The position numbers were made by a program, and so were the translations under genes. A DNA stretch of 64,000 bases, from the NCBI GenBank assembly GCA_021790935.1, contig JAJYFL010000005.1, forward strand, positions 62,001-126,000, read 5' to 3'. The notes below the pieces were generated by a model. It did no database searches. It worked only from the letters and a program-made list of their open reading frames with translations, and was not told the DNA's origin. This DNA comes from a bacterium (GTDB lineage Bacteria > Vulcanimicrobiota > Vulcanimicrobiia > Vulcanimicrobiales > Vulcanimicrobiaceae). Every line of letters begins with the position of its first letter. The first letter of the stretch is position 1. Positions 40,454-49,028 of this stretch are shown here, one piece after another.

Positions 40454-41947
40454 TCAGCCGTGCTGGCGCTGCAGCGGGAAGAGGATCACGTCGCGGATGC
40501 TCGGGTTGTTCGTCAGCAGCATCACCAGCCGGTCGACCCCGATCCCGATGCCGGCCGTCGGCGGCATGCCGTACTCCAGCGCTCGGACGAAATCCCAATC
40601 CGGCTCGGGGATATCCTCGTTGCCGCCGGCGCGCTCGCGCACTTGGGCTTCGAAGCGCGCGCGCTGATCGTCGGGATCGTTCAGCTCGGTAAACGCGTTC
40701 GACACCTCGAAGTTCGCGCAGAAGAGCTCGTAACGGTCGACGAGCTCGGGGTCGTCCTTCTTGCGTTTGGCGAGCGGCGAGATGGCGACGGGGTAATCCG
40801 TCACGAAGGTCGGTTCCACGAGATGCGGCTCGAGCACGTGTTCGAAGATCTTGTCGAGCGCGTGGCCGTGCGCCGGCGAAGGCGGCAGGCCGAGCTCCTC
40901 GAGGATCGCGGCGGCGCCGGCCGGCGAGAGCAGGCGCTCGCGTTCGAAGCCGCCGTAGCGCGCGATGCCCTCGAGGTACCCGATGCGCGCGAACGGCCGT
41001 TCGAACGAGATCGTGCGCTCGCCGTGCCGCAGCGTATTCAGCCCGCCGGTAACGCCGGCGACCAGATGCGCGACGAGCGCTTCGTTGAACTCCATCATGT
41101 CGTGCACGTCCCAGTAGGCCGCGTAGAGTTCGAGCATCGTGAACTCCGGATTGTGGGTCGTGTCGATACCTTCGTTGCGAAAGATGCGCCCGATCTCGTA
41201 GACGCGCTCGAGGCCCCCGACGATCAACCGCTTGAGGTTCAGTTCGGTCGCGATGCGCAGCTGCATCGATTGGTCGAGCGCGTTGACGTGCGTGAGAAAC
41301 GGCCGCGCCGCGGCGCCGCCGGCGACGTGCAGCAACGTCGGGGTTTCGACTTCGAAAAAGCCGCGCGCGTCGATGAAACGCCGCATCTCCGCAACGATGG
41401 TGCTGCGCGCGGCGAAGGCGTCGCGCACTTCGGGGTTCACGATGAGATCGAGGTAACGCTGGCGATAGCGCTTCTCCACGTCGGTCAGGCCGTGCCACTT
41501 GTCGGGCAGCGGCGCGAGCGCCTTCGCGAGCACCGCGAAATCCAAGACGTGCAGCGTCAACTCGCCCATCTTGGAGCGGAACATGTAACCGCGCACGCCG
41601 ACCAGATCGCCGATGTCGAGATCGATCCAATCCTCGTAGCGCTCCGGCCCGATATCGTCTTTGCGGACGTAGATCTGCAGCCGGTCCGTGCGGTCGCGCA
41701 GATCGGCGAAGAGCGTCTTGCCCATGCGCCGCTTCGACATGATCCGCCCGGCGATCGACCGCTGCTCGCCCTCGGCCTTCCGTTCGGGCTCGAGCGCCGC
41801 GTACGCGGCGCGCAGTTCCGCGGCGCTGGCATCCACGTCGTACCGCGTTTGAGCGAAGGGGTCGTTCCCGCGCGAGCGCAGAGCGGCAAGATTCGCACGC
41901 CGGGCCGCGACCAGCGCGGCCTCCGCCGCGCCCAAATCCTCGTTCAT
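40454..41947 (-). CDS. lysS: Lysyl-tRNA synthetase, class II
   Basis: This 497-residue enzyme charges tRNA-Lys. The N-terminal OB-fold binds the anticodon (AGRIMSKRRMGKTLFADLRD), and the class II motifs follow: motif 2 in EIGRIFRNEGIDTTHNPEFT and motif 3 in GIGIGVDRLVMLLTNNPSIR. The N-terminal start MNEDLGAAEAAL at 41947 gives the usual length. It lies downstream of greA on the same strand, separated by a dispersed repeat. Confidence 0.97.
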   Translation of the reverse strand: MNEDLGAAEAALVAARRANLAALRSRGNDPFAQTRYDVDASAAELRAAYAALEPERKAEGEQRSIAGRIMSKRRMGKTLFADLRDRTDRLQIYVRKDDIGPERYEDWIDLDIGDLVGVRGYMFRSKMGELTLHVLDFAVLAKALAPLPDKWHGLTDVEKRYRQRYLDLIVNPEVRDAFAARSTIVAEMRRFIDARGFFEVETPTLLHVAGGAAARPFLTHVNALDQSMQLRIATELNLKRLIVGGLERVYEIGRIFRNEGIDTTHNPEFTMLELYAAYWDVHDMMEFNEALVAHLVAGVTGGLNTLRHGERTISFERPFARIGYLEGIARYGGFERERLLSPAGAAAILEELGLPPSPAHGHALDKIFEHVLEPHLVEPTFVTDYPVAISPLAKRKKDDPELVDRYELFCANFEVSNAFTELNDPDDQRARFEAQVRERAGGNEDIPEPDWDFVRALEYGMPPTAGIGIGVDRLVMLLTNNPSIRDVILFPLQRQHG

Positions 41948-42044: not shown

Positions 42045-42563
42045 TCAGCTGGCCTTCTTGGCAGCTTTCTTGGGAGCTGCGCCGGCGCCGCTCTTGATCT
42101 GCTCGACCTTGTATTTGACGAGGCCGCGCGGCGTGGCCACGTCGACGGTCTCGTTCTTCTTACGCCCGATGAGCGCGTGGCCGAGAGGAGACTCGTTGCT
42201 GATGCGGTGGTTCACCGGGTCCGCCTCCGCCGAGCCGACGATCGAAAACTCGCGCGAGGCGCCGCTCTTGATATCCTTCACCTTGACGCTGCAGCCAAGA
42301 TGCACCTCGCCCGCGGCGTACTCCAACTCGTCGATGAGCCGCGCGTTGCGAATCATCCCTTCGAGCTTGAGGATGCGACCCTCGATGAACGCCTGTTCCT
42401 GCTTCGCGTCCTCGTACTCCGCGTTTTCGCTGAGGTCCCCGAACTCTTTCGCCTGGCGAATGCGGTCGTTGACCTCCCGGCGGTGGACGCTCTTCAGATC
42501 GTCGAGCTCGTGCTCGAGCTTTGCCAGGCCCTCTCTGGTAAGGACGATCTCTTTTTCGTTCAA
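42045..42563 (-). CDS. greA: Transcription elongation factor GreA
   Basis: This 172-residue protein rescues backtracked RNA polymerase by stimulating RNA cleavage. The coiled-coil with acidic tip is clear (RIRQAKEFGDLSENAEYEDA), followed by the FKBP-like domain (YKVEQI near the end). A Lys/Ala-rich C-terminal extension (APKKAAKKAS) adds about 12 residues to the usual size. Confidence 0.97.
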   Translation of the reverse strand: MNEKEIVLTREGLAKLEHELDDLKSVHRREVNDRIRQAKEFGDLSENAEYEDAKQEQAFIEGRILKLEGMIRNARLIDELEYAAGEVHLGCSVKVKDIKSGASREFSIVGSAEADPVNHRISNESPLGHALIGRKKNETVDVATPRGLVKYKVEQIKSGAGAAPKKAAKKAS

Positions 42564-42753
42564 CTAAAGACCCTCTATAGACCCTCGAAATATGCAGAGA
42601 ACCTCAGGATGCCGCGGCACCGAGAGGAACCCGCGCCCGGTATGAAGGCGCCCGAAGTACGGGGCCAGCGCCGTTGGTTCCGTGCTGCCCGGGTGGGCGC
42701 CTGCCGCCGCCCCTCTCGGCAGCGCGACGAACGCGGCACCCGGGGCCGTTCGC

Positions 42754-42778
42754 GGCCCCCGGGGAGCCCCCGGGGGCC
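42754..42778 (-). terminator. GC-rich hairpin after the quinate-dehydrogenase-like gene
   Basis: A perfect 11-bp stem (GGCCCCCGGGG with its complement) and a 3-nt loop lies 8 bp after the stop of the 42786 gene. There is no T-tract, so it is a terminator-like structure or an RNA-stabilising hairpin. The remaining 190 bp up to greA hold nothing recognisable. Confidence 0.5.
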
Positions 42779-42785
42779 GTGGGCG

Positions 42786-43691
42786 CTAGTTCAACTCGAT
42801 GACGCGGGGCTGCAGGTGCAGCTCCGCGAGCAGCCGTTCGTAGTCGGCGGGTGAGACGTCGGCCCACTTCTTTCCGAGCAGCGCCAGCAAGGCCGCTTCG
42901 ACGACGTTGGTTCCGAACGAGCGCCCTTGGAAATCCGGCGTCGTCGTGACGAGCATCTTCACGCCGCGGGTTCGCAACTCGTCGATATTCGCCGTCGTGA
43001 CGGTATTCGTGAGCACGATCTTTCCGTCCAAGCGATCCGGCATATATCGCCGCATGAAATGAAAGTCTCCGGCGACGATATCCGCCTCCCGATAGTACTC
43101 CGGATACTTCGGCTCGGGCGGCTGCTCTTGTTTCTTGCCGGTCGGATAGAAGAACTGGAACGGCAGCTTGCAGGCATCCGGCAGATATTTTTCGGCCATC
43201 TCTTCGAACTCGCGCAGCCCGCGCACCGGCTTGTCGAGATCGAGCGCGAAGATGAAGTCGCCGAATAGCACGTCCGCGCCGGCTTCGACCAGCGCCTGCG
43301 CCATGCCGAAACGGTCGAGCGCGGAGACCATCAGCACGTGCTTGCCGCGCAGATCGATGCCGAGATCCGCCTGCATGTAGCGCACCGCTTCGCGTTCGAG
43401 CGTGTTCTTGAGCCCGCTGCCGTCGACCACCGGCGTCACCGCGGCGGCCGCGAGCAGCCGCAAGCCGTCACGCAGGGCGTAGCGCTTGGTGCCGGCATAG
43501 AGGTAGACGTCGATGCCGCCGAGCCCAATCGCGTCGACGGTGCCGTCGAGCGACTTGACCTTTGCAATCGCGGCATCGAGCTTGCCGTCGGTGCCTATTC
43601 GCGATATGTCGAACTCCTCGCCCAACAGCGTCACGAGCGCGCGATGGTCGCGCGTGCTGCTGCCGAGCGAGACGGAGACGACCGTCTTCAT
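42786..43691 (-). CDS. Quinate/shikimate 5-dehydrogenase-like protein
   Basis: This 301-residue protein starts VVSVSLGSSTRDHRALVTLL and has GLGGIDVYLYAGTKRYALRD and VDGSGLKNTLEREAVRYM. Proteins of this type are annotated as quinate 5-dehydrogenase in databases, though the real activity is not established to my knowledge. The ATG at 43691 overlaps the stop of the acyl-ACP-reductase-like gene (ATGA), and the pair likely works together. The reaction is unknown. Confidence 0.7.
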   Translation of the reverse strand: MKTVVSVSLGSSTRDHRALVTLLGEEFDISRIGTDGKLDAAIAKVKSLDGTVDAIGLGGIDVYLYAGTKRYALRDGLRLLAAAAVTPVVDGSGLKNTLEREAVRYMQADLGIDLRGKHVLMVSALDRFGMAQALVEAGADVLFGDFIFALDLDKPVRGLREFEEMAEKYLPDACKLPFQFFYPTGKKQEQPPEPKYPEYYREADIVAGDFHFMRRYMPDRLDGKIVLTNTVTTANIDELRTRGVKMLVTTTPDFQGRSFGTNVVEAALLALLGKKWADVSPADYERLLAELHLQPRVIELN

Positions 43692-44815
43692 GCCGATACT
43701 CCGGCGCCGCGCGCCCGAGCGGCGGCACGCGTGGCCGCGATCTTCTCCGCCGTGATCGCCGTGTCGAAGGCGCGCATGCCGGCCGGCGTAAAGCCCGCGC
43801 GCGTGGCCAGCGCTTCGATCTCGACGACCTTCGCAATGTCGATGCCGCGCCCGAGCGTGTAACATTCCAAACGGTTTTCGAGCGCTAAGACCATCGTCTC
43901 GCTCATGCAGGCCAGCGCCGTACGCGGCGGAAGATTCAAATCGAACTCGGTGCCCGGTTCGCGTACGCGCTCGAAGCGCGGGTTCGGGCCCGGAACCAGC
44001 ATGTTCCCGCCCTCGGTCACGAGCACGTCCGGGCGCTCGAGCGCGACGCGGCGGCTCACGTCGTGCGGCAGCGAGAGCTCGCAGACGACCGCACCGGTCT
44101 GCAAATCTTCGGGTTGGATGACGTCTTGCGTCGAACTCGTCGCGGTGAGCACCAACTGTGCGCGGCGTACCGCGGCCGAGATGTCGGTCGTGTACGAAGA
44201 GCCGCACGGCAGCTCGCCCGCGATCGACTCGTGGAACTTCGCCAGCCGCGTGTTGTTGCGCGCCACGAGCACGACGTGCTTCACCCGCGGCGCGATGAGC
44301 TTCACGCAGGCCGAGCCGATCGAACCGGTCGCGCCGGCGACGACGGCGGTCGCCTCGCTCGCATCGATCCCCATCTCGCGAGCGCCGCGAAAGAGGCTCT
44401 GAATTCCCGCGGCGATCGTGAGCGCGTTCCCGGTCGTCACCGGAATCGGCGAGCGCTCCGCGATCGTCACGCCGGCATCGCCCACGACGCCCGTGAAGGC
44501 GCCCAGCCCCGCGATCTGCGCGCCGAGCTCCGCGCCGATCTCGATCGCGCGAACGATGCGGTCGTAGACGGCGTCGCGCGAAAACTCCAGCATCTGCTCG
44601 GGCAGCAGCGGCGCGCCGATGAACCAGCCCTCGGTCTCGCGGCCGTCCGGCGTCACCACGCCCGTCACGTGCACCGCAGCCCACGGCGGCATCCACTCGA
44701 GAATCTTGCGAATGATGGGCGCACCTTTCCCGGCGGCGCCGGGTTCGTAGCGCGCCACGTCGTCGAGCGAGAGCGGATGGATGACGAAACAGAACTTACT
44801 CGTCGGCTGCGTCAC
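43688..44815 (-). CDS. Relative of cyanobacterial acyl-ACP reductase (COG5322)
   Basis: This 375-residue protein resembles the long-chain acyl-[ACP] reductase of cyanobacteria, which makes fatty aldehydes. Shared features are LPEQMLEFSRDAVYDRIVRA with GAQIAGLGAFTGVVGD, the threonine-rich TTGNALTIAAGIQ, the NAD(P)-binding loop GATGSIGSAC at 161-170, and Cys303 in TALACMSETM, which aligns with the catalytic Cys of the cyanobacterial enzyme. The GTG at 44815 overlaps the SRPBCC gene stop (GTGA). The exact substrate is not known; an amino or fatty acyl aldehyde is possible. Confidence 0.78.
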   Translation of the reverse strand: MTQPTSKFCFVIHPLSLDDVARYEPGAAGKGAPIIRKILEWMPPWAAVHVTGVVTPDGRETEGWFIGAPLLPEQMLEFSRDAVYDRIVRAIEIGAELGAQIAGLGAFTGVVGDAGVTIAERSPIPVTTGNALTIAAGIQSLFRGAREMGIDASEATAVVAGATGSIGSACVKLIAPRVKHVVLVARNNTRLAKFHESIAGELPCGSSYTTDISAAVRRAQLVLTATSSTQDVIQPEDLQTGAVVCELSLPHDVSRRVALERPDVLVTEGGNMLVPGPNPRFERVREPGTEFDLNLPPRTALACMSETMVLALENRLECYTLGRGIDIAKVVEIEALATRAGFTPAGMRAFDTAITAEKIAATRAAARARGAGVSA

Positions 44816-45246
44816 TTCTCCGCCTCTGCTTTCAGCGCGGCCAGCATCATCTCGCTGTTCTCGCGCACCTTCTTCTGCAACGTCGGGCCGATCAGCTCGG
44901 CCAGCGTCGGCACGCCGAAATCGTACTCGACGCCGAGTACGACGTGCGTCGCGCTGCCGTTTTGCGTAAAGGTCCACGCGCCCTCGAACGTATCGAGATC
45001 GCCTTCCAGGAGTTTGTAGTCGATGCGCAAGGCCTCGTCGTCGAAGCGGTCTTCCTCGATCCACTCGATCGGCGCCTCCTCGACGAGCGTCTTCCAGCGC
45101 GTGAGGACGCGGTCGGGGAAGCGCTCGACGACCGTCACCGACTCGACATCCGGCATGAACTGCGGAAAGCGCTCTTGCTCCTTCGCCAGTTCGTATACGC
45201 TGCGGGCCGGGGCTACGATCGCGATGCTCGTTTCAACGTAGGGCAT
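44812..45246 (-). CDS. SRPBCC (polyketide cyclase/RatA-like) protein
   Basis: This 144-residue protein is a single START-like lipid-binding domain: MPYVETSIAIVAPARSVYEL, then ERFPQFMPDVESVTVVER, then GSATHVVLGVEYDFGVPT. Such domains bind hydrophobic ligands. It lies between an aminotransferase and an acyl-ACP-reductase-like gene in one operon, which fits a role with a lipophilic intermediate. That role is inferred from context. Confidence 0.85.
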   Translation of the reverse strand: MPYVETSIAIVAPARSVYELAKEQERFPQFMPDVESVTVVERFPDRVLTRWKTLVEEAPIEWIEEDRFDDEALRIDYKLLEGDLDTFEGAWTFTQNGSATHVVLGVEYDFGVPTLAELIGPTLQKKVRENSEMMLAALKAEAEK

Positions 45247-46503
45247 TTACAGCGGCCCGAGCTTCTCGTACGCGGTGGCCAGCCCTGCTTCAAGTGCGGC
45301 TAGCGCCCGGTCGATCTCTTCGGCCGTCACGACCAAGGGCGGCTCGAGACGGATGACGCGCTGCATGTTCAGCGTCCAGGCGGCGGTAACGCCGTGCTTG
45401 ACCATCTCGGGGATGATCCAGCCGCCGTAGCCTTCGCTCGTGAGCTCGACGCCCACCAGCAGGCCGAGCCCGCGCGCCTCGCGCACGACGCCCGGGTACT
45501 TCTCACCGAGCGCGCGCGCCCCCGCCAGCAGCTGTTCGCCACGCACGCGCGCGTTCTCGACCAAACCGTCGGCAACGAGCACCTCCATGGCGGCGAGCGC
45601 CGCCGCGCACGCGATCTCGCTGCCGCCGAAGGTCGAGGTGTGCATGACCGGGTGTTTGCCGTACGCGGCGTGCCAGACGCTCGGGCGCGCGATGAACGCG
45701 CCGACCGGAATCACGCCGCCGGAGAGCCCTTTGGCCAGCGTCATCACGTCGGGGACGACGCCGTCGCGGTCGCAGCCGAAGAGCATGCCGCAGCGTCCGA
45801 GCCCGGTCTGCACTTCGTCGGCGATGAAGAGCGCGCCGGTGCGGTCGCACGCGTCGCGCACCGCGCGCAGGTAGCCGAGCGGCGGAACGTTGACGCCGCC
45901 CTCGCCCTGCACCGGCTCGACAACGAACGCCGCCGCGTCGCGCAGCACCTCGTCGAGCCCGGTCGCGTCGCCGTAGGGAACGTGTGCGACGTCGCTCAGC
46001 AGCGGGCGGTACTCGCTCTTGAAGTATTCGCGTCCGCTGATGGAGAGCGCGCCGAGCGTCTTGCCGTGATACGCGTCGTGCGTGCCGACGATCTTCGCGC
46101 GCTTCGTCGCGACGCGCGCGAGTTTGACCGCACCTTCGACCGCTTCGGCGCCGCTGTTTGCAAAGAACGATATCTGCAGGTCTCCCGGTGCGAGCTCGGC
46201 TAAGCGGCGCGAGACGCGGCCGAGCATCACGTTGAACATCGTCTTGCCCGAAAGCGACATCAGTTCGAGCTGCGCCTTGACGGCGGCGACGACGGCGGGG
46301 TGGCTGTGGCCGAGCGTGAAGACCCCGTAACCTCCGGCGAAGTCGAGGTAGGCCTTGCCGTTCTGGTCCCAAATCGTGCAGCCGCGCGCGCGCACTTCGA
46401 CCGGGCTGCCGGAGAGTTTCATCACGCGCGCGAGCGGCGGGTTTACGAACTGCCGGTAATTCTCATACGTCTCGTCGTAGAGTCTCTGCGCGGCGTCGCT
46501 CAT
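45247..46503 (-). CDS. Class III PLP-dependent aminotransferase
   Basis: This 418-residue enzyme has the fold-type I ornithine/putrescine aminotransferase pattern: YLDFAGGYGVFTLGHSHPAV, NSGAEAVEGAVKLAR, ADEVQTGLGRCG and the PLP Lys258 in TLAKGLSGG. It likely moves an amino group from a diamine or omega-amino acid to a keto acid. The ATG overlaps the dus stop (ATGA). Putrescine or 4-aminobutyrate are the likeliest substrates from general similarity, but the specificity is not visible. Confidence 0.92.
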   Translation of the reverse strand: MSDAAQRLYDETYENYRQFVNPPLARVMKLSGSPVEVRARGCTIWDQNGKAYLDFAGGYGVFTLGHSHPAVVAAVKAQLELMSLSGKTMFNVMLGRVSRRLAELAPGDLQISFFANSGAEAVEGAVKLARVATKRAKIVGTHDAYHGKTLGALSISGREYFKSEYRPLLSDVAHVPYGDATGLDEVLRDAAAFVVEPVQGEGGVNVPPLGYLRAVRDACDRTGALFIADEVQTGLGRCGMLFGCDRDGVVPDVMTLAKGLSGGVIPVGAFIARPSVWHAAYGKHPVMHTSTFGGSEIACAAALAAMEVLVADGLVENARVRGEQLLAGARALGEKYPGVVREARGLGLLVGVELTSEGYGGWIIPEMVKHGVTAAWTLNMQRVIRLEPPLVVTAEEIDRALAALEAGLATAYEKLGPL

Positions 46504-47510
46504 GCGGCGGCCGGGCGTTCTAGGGTCGCGATCGCGGTTTCGACGACGGCGATCACGTCGGCGGCGCGGTCGAGGCGCATGATGCGCTCCCGCAGGATCG
46601 CGGCGTTGGGCATGCCTTTCAGATAGAGCGCGAGATGCCTGCGCATCTGCGGCACGGCGCGGCGTTCGCCGAGCTCGTCGACCATCGCGGAGAAGTGCAC
46701 GCCGATCGCGTAGCGCAGCCGGTCCGGCGCGCTCGGCAGCGCGTGCGGTTCGCGGCCCTCCATCGCGTCGCGAATCTGCGAGATGAGCCACGGGTTGCCG
46801 AGCGCCGCGCGTCCCAGCATGATGCCGTCGGCGCCGCTCTCCCGCATGCGCTGCAGCGCGATTCGAGCGTCGGCGAGATCGCCGTTGCCGATGACCGGAA
46901 TGTCGACGGCGCGCTTGAGCCGCGCGACGTGCGCCCAGTCCGCTTCACCTTTGTAGAACTGCCGCGCCGTCCGTGCGTGCAGCGTAACGGCACGCGCACC
47001 GGCATCTTGAGCGCGCTTGGCGACTTCGAGGTAGACCAGTGCGTCTTCGCTCCAGCCCAACCGCAACTTGATCGTCACCGGGCAGTCGACGGCCGCCGCG
47101 ACCGCGCGCACGATCGCCTCGCAGCGGTCCACGTCGCGCAGGCAGGCCGAGCCGCCGTTGGTCTTGGTGACCTTCGGCGCCGGGCAGCCGAAGTTGATGT
47201 CGACGATGTCGGCGCCGCATTCGCGCACGACCCGCGCCGCGCGCGCCATCAGCTCGGGATCGTCGCCCCAGAGCTGCGTGGCGACGGGCTTCTCGAGCCC
47301 GTGCTGGTCGATCATCTCCATCGTGCGCCGGTTCGTCGACGCATACGAGAGCGCGTTGGACGAAACGAACTCGGTGACGGTGAGCCCCAAGCCGAAGGGC
47401 CGGTAGAGCGCGCGCATCGTGCGGTTGGTCACGCCCGACATCGGCGCCAGCACCAGCGGCGGCCAAATTTCGTGCGGCCCGATAACCAGCGGATCTACGG
47501 TGCGAGGCAT
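46500..47510 (-). CDS. dus: tRNA-dihydrouridine synthase
   Basis: This 336-residue flavoenzyme reduces uridines in the tRNA D-loop. The family motifs are LAPMSGVTNRTMRALYRPFG, DINFGCPAPKVTKTNGGSACL with the catalytic Cys, TLHARTARQFYKGEADW and GNGDLADARIAL. The ATG at 47510 is used; a further upstream start at 47540 lies before the promoter. It heads the operon of aminotransferase, SRPBCC, acyl-ACP-reductase-like and quinate-dehydrogenase-like genes. Confidence 0.95.
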   Translation of the reverse strand: MPRTVDPLVIGPHEIWPPLVLAPMSGVTNRTMRALYRPFGLGLTVTEFVSSNALSYASTNRRTMEMIDQHGLEKPVATQLWGDDPELMARAARVVRECGADIVDINFGCPAPKVTKTNGGSACLRDVDRCEAIVRAVAAAVDCPVTIKLRLGWSEDALVYLEVAKRAQDAGARAVTLHARTARQFYKGEADWAHVARLKRAVDIPVIGNGDLADARIALQRMRESGADGIMLGRAALGNPWLISQIRDAMEGREPHALPSAPDRLRYAIGVHFSAMVDELGERRAVPQMRRHLALYLKGMPNAAILRERIMRLDRAADVIAVVETAIATLERPAAA

Positions 47511-47629: not shown

Positions 47630-48256
47630 ATGAACTCGCCGCAACTGCTGCTGATCGGGGCGGTGCTCGCCGTGGGCGTGCTCCATACCATCGTGCCCGA
47701 CCATTGGCTGCCGATCGCGGTGCTCGCCCGCCACCACCGCTGGTCGGTGGCGCGCACCGCGCGCACGGCGGCACTGGCCGGCGTCGGCCACACGCTCTCG
47801 ACGCTGGTCATCGGCGCGCTCGTATGGCTGGCCGGTGCGCTGGTCGCGCAGCGATATGGGCATGCGATCTCGCTACTCTCGAGCCTGGCCCTGGTCGGCT
47901 TCGGCGTTTGGATCGCGATCTCGTCGGTGCGCGAGCTGCGCGAGCGGGAGCGCGAACCGGCGCGCAACCCGGGAACCTCGCGCTCGACCGCGCTGCTGCT
48001 GATTCTCGGATCGTCGCCGATGGTCGAAGGGATTCCCGCGTTCTTCGCCGCGGGGCGCTACGGTCTCAACCTGATCCTCATCATGTCGGCCGTCTTCGCA
48101 CTCTCGACGATCCTCACGTACGTCGTGCTCTGCGCGGGCTCCGCGGCCGGATTGCAGACCCTGCGCTTGGGACGCTTCGAACGCTATGGTGAAGTCCTCA
48201 GCGGCGCGATCATCGCGCTCGTCGGGGTCGCGTTCCTCATCTGGCCCGTGTTATAG
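47630..48256 (+). CDS. NicO/HupE-like metal transporter
   Basis: This 208-residue membrane protein has about six helices. H19-TIVP-D24-H25 in VLHTIVPDHWLPIAVL matches the H-x4-D-H signature of nickel/cobalt transporters, and a second His occurs in AGVGHTLSTLVIG. Nickel or cobalt uptake or efflux is plausible, but homologues with other substrates exist. Its end overlaps the convergent coaX gene by 20 bp. Confidence 0.72.
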   Translation: MNSPQLLLIGAVLAVGVLHTIVPDHWLPIAVLARHHRWSVARTARTAALAGVGHTLSTLVIGALVWLAGALVAQRYGHAISLLSSLALVGFGVWIAISSVRELREREREPARNPGTSRSTALLLILGSSPMVEGIPAFFAAGRYGLNLILIMSAVFALSTILTYVVLCAGSAAGLQTLRLGRFERYGEVLSGAIIALVGVAFLIWPVL

Positions 48257-49028
48257 CCTGGTGCGATAAGCGATAGAAGGCGCGCAAGCCGAGCAAGCTC
48301 AGGTGCGGGTTCACTTCGTCGATGGCATCCGTGTGACGCGCGAGCGTCTCCGCGAGCCCGCCCGTCGCCACGGTGCGCGCATTCGCGCCCAACTCCTTGC
48401 GAAAGCGCGCGATCATCGCCTCGGTCTGGCCCACGAAGCCGTAGACGATCCCCGACTGCAGCGCCGAGATCGTGTCGCGGCCGATCGCCTGCCCGGGCGC
48501 TTCGAGCGCGATCTCGGGTAGTTTCGCCGTGCGCCCTACGAGCGCATCGACCGAGATGTTGATGCCTGGTGCGATCGCGACGCCGAGATACTCGCCCGCC
48601 GCCGAGATCGCCATGAAGACCGTCGCGGTGCCGTAGCTGATGACGACGAGCGGTGCGCCATAGAGCTCGCGCGCGCCGATCGCTGCGGCGACGAGGTCTG
48701 CGCCGACTTCGTTCGGTCGTTCCGTCACGACCGTCATCAGGTTCTGCCGGTGCGCCTTGAAGAAGACCGGCGTTACGTTGAAGAAGCGCCGGCAGGCCTG
48801 CTCCAGCACCGGGTCGAGCGGCGGCACGACGCTGGCTGCGACCACCGCCTCCACCTCGGCGGGCCGCAGGCCGGCCGTCGCGAAGAGCTGCGTGAGAAAG
48901 ACGCCGTATTCGTCGGCCGTGCGCCGGCGCTCGGTCGTGACGCGCCAGGTGTGCGAGAGCCGCTCCGAACCGTCTTCGAAGCAGCCGAGTTTGGTCTCGG
49001 TATTCCCGACGTCGATCGTCAGCAGCAT
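48237..49028 (-). CDS. coaX: Type III pantothenate kinase (with unusual active-site residues)
   Basis: This 263-residue protein phosphorylates pantothenate in the first step to coenzyme A. The N-terminal phosphate loop DVGNTETKLG and the spacing fit CoaX. Two family positions differ: GADLVAAA keeps the catalytic Asp111 but has Leu for the usual Arg of GADR, and ISYGTATVF has Ser-Tyr in place of the usual Asp in DxGTATT. The start overlaps coaBC by 10 bp. Context in the panC-coaBC-coaX operon supports the role, although the changes leave activity open. Confidence 0.85.
   Translation of the reverse strand: MLLTIDVGNTETKLGCFEDGSERLSHTWRVTTERRRTADEYGVFLTQLFATAGLRPAEVEAVVAASVVPPLDPVLEQACRRFFNVTPVFFKAHRQNLMTVVTERPNEVGADLVAAAIGARELYGAPLVVISYGTATVFMAISAAGEYLGVAIAPGINISVDALVGRTAKLPEIALEAPGQAIGRDTISALQSGIVYGFVGQTEAMIARFRKELGANARTVATGGLAETLARHTDAIDEVNPHLSLLGLRAFYRLSHQAITRAR

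Follow-up and report, generated by a model that had tools for sequence, protein, structure and literature searches.

Gene Organization of the Locus

The window is a stretch of 64,000 nucleotides whose host genome (2.65 Mb, 98.8% complete) has its relatives in the Eremiobacterota/Vulcanimicrobiota. On the minus strand, a run of genes with all frames open leads from dusB through the genes of an aminotransferase (AT), an SRPBCC protein, a thioester reductase (TR) and an orphan protein (ORF4) to greA and lysS. The features are as follows:

48237-49028, minus strand: coaX-like type III pantothenate kinase gene, upstream landmark (identified by eye in the sequence)
46500-47510, minus strand: dusB, tRNA-dihydrouridine synthase (TIGR00737, 332.7 bits, cut-off 293.3)
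45247-46503, minus strand: AT, class III PLP-dependent aminotransferase of the PigE/putrescine-aminotransferase type (PF00202, 3.7e-98)
45730-45732, minus strand: codon of AT Lys258, the PLP lysine in LAKGLSGG (invariant in alignment A4)
44812-45246, minus strand: SRPBCC/START-domain protein (PF03364, 4.1e-18)
43688-44815, minus strand: TR, acyl-ACP-reductase-like thioester reductase of the COG5322 type (matches to the PigE N-terminal half and TIGR04058)
44315-44335, minus strand: codons of the dinucleotide-binding loop GATGSIG, TR residues 161-167 (invariant across alignment A2)
43907-43909, minus strand: codon of TR Cys303, the predicted acyl-accepting cysteine (invariant in A2, aligned with the Cys of SeAAR and PigE)
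42786-43691, minus strand: ORF4, orphan conserved protein of 301 residues and partner of TR (adjacency and conservation)
42045-42563, minus strand: greA, downstream landmark (sequence and shared synteny)
40454-41947, minus strand: lysS, downstream landmark (sequence and shared synteny)

Every junction from dusB to ORF4 overlaps or abuts (ATGA between dusB and AT, TAA-ATG between AT and SRPBCC, GTGA between SRPBCC and TR, ATGA between TR and ORF4), as would be expected of one translationally coupled operon read as a single transcript. A scan of the locus for promoters and terminators gave no promoter-like site, and terminator counts stood at chance level. At another locus of the same group (L060), the operon is 97-100% identical to that of the window. 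The dusB gene, although first in the run, is probably outside the pathway, and it flanks the module in Firmicutes as well. The neighbors of the TR/AT module are thus the housekeeping genes dusB, greA, lysS and the coaX-like gene and not those of a polyketide- or prodiginine-type cluster.

The original prediction placed an aminotransferase and a lipid-binding-type protein beside the reductase, which the PF00202 and PF03364 matches bear out, and it saw no aldehyde oxygenase (ADO). A PF11266 search that detected the positive control Synechococcus elongatus returned no ADO in the host genome, and alkane synthesis by the window operon was therefore rejected. The same search gave a match in 1 of 148 genomes of the phylum. 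This sole ADO-like match (64.8 bits) is in genome G117, on contig C230:30633-31253, and an alkane pathway is possible in the genus of that genome.

The Thioester Reductase and the Aminotransferase

Among families, TR matches the N-terminal half of PigE best (1.4e-56) and then TIGR04058, the cyanobacterial acyl-ACP reductase (AAR; 3.1e-24), and searches of the PDB with a TR profile gave the same two relatives, PigE (4ppm, 1.7e-52) and SeAAR (6jzq, 8e-35). The Rossmann loop and the AAR cysteine that had been noticed in this protein are both there: the loop reads GATGSIG, and Cys303 aligns with Cys294 of SeAAR, which is the acyl-accepting residue of the cyanobacterial enzyme (PMC9594044). The invariance of Cys303 in alignment A2 is to be read with the exception of one row (L036:3998-5110), in which TR seems frameshifted in mid-gene, with identity down to 57% and unrelated residues over a stretch; this looks like a sequencing error or decay. 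A weak PF01488 match at the locus belongs to TR and not to ORF4. The protein scores far under both equivalog cut-offs, that of TIGR04058 (85.9 vs. 449.7 bits) and that of PigE (NF053554, 192 vs. 850 bits, the latter set for the whole protein), and its substrate may therefore differ.

AT stands in a similar position between two known enzymes. It scores 415 bits against the PigE model, under the cut-off of 850, and is also under the cut-offs of the putrescine aminotransferase models PRK11522/NF008570 (408 vs. 612) and TIGR03372 (347 vs. 658.65). Against the PDB, putrescine aminotransferase (1e-97) comes ahead of PigE (1.3e-88); the Escherichia coli enzyme (PatA/YgjG) ranks first among solved structures in the profile search, at 443 bits, and its LAKALGGG aligns with the LAKGLSGG around Lys258. 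Unlike the AT of the window, PatA/YgjG is a stand-alone polyamine enzyme with no thioester reductase partner. Within the host genome AT is distinct, scoring 796 bits on the AT profile vs. 293 for the next aminotransferase.

The SRPBCC Protein and ORF4

The AlphaFold model of the SRPBCC protein (pLDDT 89.7) has Thermus TTHA0849 (2d4r) as its best Foldseek match, with a TM-score of 0.87, followed by aromatase/cyclases, and the protein is presumed to be a carrier of a hydrophobic ligand or a cyclase.

ORF4 had been described as quinate-dehydrogenase-like, a label that is not supported, since the protein matches no Pfam and no NCBIfam model, of shikimate/quinate dehydrogenase or otherwise. It is nevertheless well conserved, with a mean column identity of 73% over two phyla, and its structure is predicted with a pLDDT of 90.5. 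Compared with the PDB, the model gives partial matches alone, AAR among them (TM 0.51). Profile comparison gave no support for ORF4 as a sequence homolog of TR (hhalign 0.3%), and the two folds are loosely alike, at a TM-score of about 0.5.

Known Fused Enzymes and the Proposed Pathway

The two-step chemistry of thioester reduction followed by transamination is already known from enzymes in which both halves are fused. PtTamH, from the pathway of tambjamine YP1, was shown by assay to convert an ACP-bound C12 chain into the C12 amine with NADH and L-Glu (PMC9594044). For PigE, thioester reduction and transamination were shown by chemical complementation (PMC8341465), and for the AT-COG5322 fusion KecF, reduction of an ACP-bound chain followed by amination of the aldehyde has been proposed (PMC6498172). 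Fusions from Thermaerobacter and Thermincola, which were assayed as transaminases, transaminate aliphatic aldehydes, and prodiginine-type clusters were reported in these thermophiles (PMC10829540).

The window resembles each of these in part. With PigE (Serratia prodigiosin, 4ppm) it shares homologous thioester reductase and class III aminotransferase halves, but PigE is one fused protein with TR first, lies in a secondary-metabolite cluster, and no SRPBCC protein or ORF4 has been described with it. In TamH and the thermophile fusions AT precedes TR, as in the gene order of the window, but these enzymes are again fused and TamH belongs to a secondary-metabolite cluster. KecF, of the koreenceine pathway in Pseudomonas, has the same pairing of AT with COG5322, but as a fusion in a type II PKS-like cluster, and its chemistry is itself a proposal. 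Cyanobacterial AAR shares the fold, nucleotide loop and catalytic Cys of TR, whereas its partner is ADO in alkane synthesis. The window thus has a reductase domain with loop and Cys and an aminotransferase domain with the PLP lysine, as PigE, TamH and KecF do, whereas it lacks their single polypeptide and their location in a polyketide- or prodiginine-type cluster.

We consider it likely that the operon is a split module of the TamH/PigE type that forms a primary amine in a core rather than a secondary pathway. Cys303 of TR would accept the acyl group of an acyl-ACP (or acyl-CoA), and reduction of this acyl-enzyme with NAD(P)H would yield an aldehyde; AT, through its PLP, would then aminate this aldehyde to a primary amine, with glutamate as the probable donor. 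These TR and AT steps are assigned by homology to the fused relatives, and their direction, substrate and product are inferred. For the SRPBCC protein, the probable role is to carry or shape the hydrophobic intermediate, while ORF4, as the conserved partner of TR, may be a subunit or the next enzyme.

That an aldehyde-forming reductase feeds the aminotransferase, as the original prediction proposed, is well supported by the similarity of TR and AT to the two halves of PigE, each being the closest or among the closest, by fusions with the TamH order and by the replacement of the separate genes by a fusion (see below); the aminoacyl-aldehyde pathway that it also offered found no specific support. 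A related reading, which we regard as improbable, is that the aldehyde is non-fatty, derived from a short, amino- or dicarboxyl-acyl thioester, and that AT converts it into a diamine- or polyamine-like compound or part of a cofactor. Such a product would agree with the likeness of AT to putrescine aminotransferase and with the distance of TR from the long-chain AAR equivalog. However, the SRPBCC protein next to TR, together with an SCP2 sterol-carrier-like protein next to ORF4 in some Firmicutes, suggests a hydrophobic ligand, and the fused relatives use aliphatic chains (PMC9594044, PMC10829540).

Conservation across the Eremiobacterota

TR was found in 138 of 149 genomes of the phylum and in 83 of the 85 high-quality ones, nearly always as one copy. 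The survey of the four-gene neighborhood that had been suggested as a check showed that roughly three in four of the Eremiobacterota loci examined retain the order AT-SRPBCC-TR-ORF4, even where protein identity drops to about 47%, and many of the loci without the full order are truncated by contig ends. Exceptions include a locus without SRPBCC (L099) and some with inserted genes. In all Eremiobacterota loci examined, as in the window, AT and TR are separate genes. In distant families of the phylum dusB is often gone from the locus while the AT-SRPBCC-TR-ORF4 block is intact, which argues for a functional unit rather than an inherited neighborhood. The conservation of the order across the phylum rules out chance.

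Of 81 Eremiobacterota loci, 35 carry the gene of an APC-type permease between ORF4 and greA; in the window this interval is a short gap (42564-42785) with no permease. Likewise, in some Firmicutes, ORF4 is followed by genes of an SCP2-like lipid-carrier protein and an APC permease (L079:8938-10648). A permease shared by the two phyla was considered and rejected, as the APC proteins of one phylum are not orthologs of those of the other (23% identity over 198 residues, E 3e-4).

These transporters bear on an unlikely alternative, in which the pathway runs in reverse as amine catabolism: an amine or diamine taken up by the cell would be deaminated by AT, and the resulting aldehyde would be oxidized to an acyl thioester by TR. 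Oxidation of an aldehyde to a thioester poses no thermodynamic difficulty, AT closely resembles putrescine aminotransferase, and amino-acid/amine permease genes (APC superfamily) adjoin ORF4 in the loci of the two phyla just mentioned, all of which would suit this direction. Against it, the permeases of the two phyla are not orthologs and the window has none at that place, the characterized relatives of TR are reductases (PMC9594044, PMC10829540), and a near-universal single copy better suits biosynthesis. For the preferred split amine-forming module, the same near-universal, single-copy distribution suggests that the product is probably a core constituent of the cell and not a secondary metabolite; it would be, for example, an amino-lipid or a modified cofactor.

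Split Genes and Fusions in Firmicutes

The search with ORF4 pointed to Firmicutes as a second phylum. In one class, taken around one ORF4-bearing genome, TR was found in 107 and ORF4 in 101 of 113 genomes, and in a wider Firmicutes sample the counts were 168 and 195 of 259. The usual order is coaX-like - dusB - HTH regulator - ORF4 - TR - greA - lysS, so that the pair sits among the same chromosomal landmarks as the window operon; the coaX-like gene precedes dusB in many of the loci L157-L171. With both genes present in nearly every genome, class-level co-occurrence of any TR with ORF4 was not significant (p=0.12) and was set aside. Gene adjacency is more telling: of the 101 Firmicutes genomes listing both, 89 have ORF4 immediately upstream of TR, with a median gap of 29 bp. 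Some Firmicutes genomes have ORF4 and no TR, and ORF4 may therefore have another role.

All 18 genomes of split-type Firmicutes that were tested have a relative of AT (417-577 bits), which in most of them is distant from TR on the chromosome. About 20 genomes of the class instead encode an AT-TR fusion of 870-950 residues with the domain order of TamH. A strong separate TR occurs in 1 of the 20 fusion genomes vs. 87 of the 93 others (Fisher p=2e-15), and a separate AT in 3 of 20 vs. 88 of 93 (p=4e-13), although these values overstate independence, since the fusion genomes are related. One of the fusions was deduced from a gene truncated at a contig end. The fusion is thus almost always found in place of both genes, the complementary pattern expected if it does the job of both. 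One Firmicute (L175:4928-9918) combines dusB and ORF4 with both an AT-TR fusion and a separate, fast-evolving TR, all side by side, perhaps an intermediate in the replacement.

It is very improbable that the genes are neighbors only by chromosome history, with TR and ORF4 doing one job (e.g., supplying a fatty aldehyde for another lipid) and AT another. The ORF4-TR pair does stand apart from AT in most Firmicutes, but this reading has to contend with the AT-TR fusions and their distribution complementary to the separate genes, and with the block that outlasts the departure of dusB in distant families of the Eremiobacterota.

In the TR tree, the Eremiobacterota split from a group of stand-alone and fused Firmicutes proteins, while PigE_TR and SeAAR sit on very long branches and their placement is unreliable. 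The AT tree likewise sets the Eremiobacterota apart from the stand-alone and fused Firmicutes forms, except that its Eremiobacterota side also holds EcPatA and four Firmicutes ATs. Membership of the window AT in the fusion/PigE clade was not supported, as it lies across a well-supported branch, in an unresolved part of the tree with EcPatA. This position counts against the split TamH/PigE-type module, as do the nearness of AT to putrescine aminotransferase and the distance between AT and TR in most Firmicutes.

The small HTH protein of the Firmicutes loci belongs to a family with no NCBIfam model and a weak HTH_3 match (L157:4402-4944). In many Firmicutes it adjoins ORF4-TR, and elsewhere its neighbor is AT or the AT-TR fusion; at L136 and L141, for instance, AT lies beside a regulator of this family. 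It could be the regulator of the pathway.

Significance of the Split Operon

The original prediction knew of no described pathway with this set of genes. This is not so for the chemistry, which has been described for the fused PigE, TamH and KecF, but it stands for the setting: the split, phylum-wide core operon with SRPBCC and ORF4, the greA-lysS site in two phyla and ORF4 as a partner of TR were not found in the literature searched, which took in few subscription journals and is weak evidence on this point. The combination of TR and AT is otherwise known from pigment and alkaloid clusters, and the unfused, near-universal, single-copy operon and the conserved site in Firmicutes would imply a primary-metabolic amine, unnamed as far as we found. 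For the uncharacterized family of ORF4, the association with TR is a strong functional lead.

A broader and more doubtful idea, which we put forward tentatively, is that a long-chain primary amine not described before (e.g., an amino-lipid) is a core constituent of the cell in the whole phylum and in large parts of the Firmicutes, made by split TR and AT with the help of ORF4, and that the fused enzymes of antibiotic and pigment pathways are offshoots of this ancient module. A literature search on the membrane lipids of Eremiobacterota gave nothing beyond the chemotaxonomy of Vulcanimicrobium alpinus, which has iso-C14 among its main fatty acids. In this organism, the first cultured member of the phylum, seven lipids were reported as unidentified (PMC9758169), which makes the amine idea directly testable.
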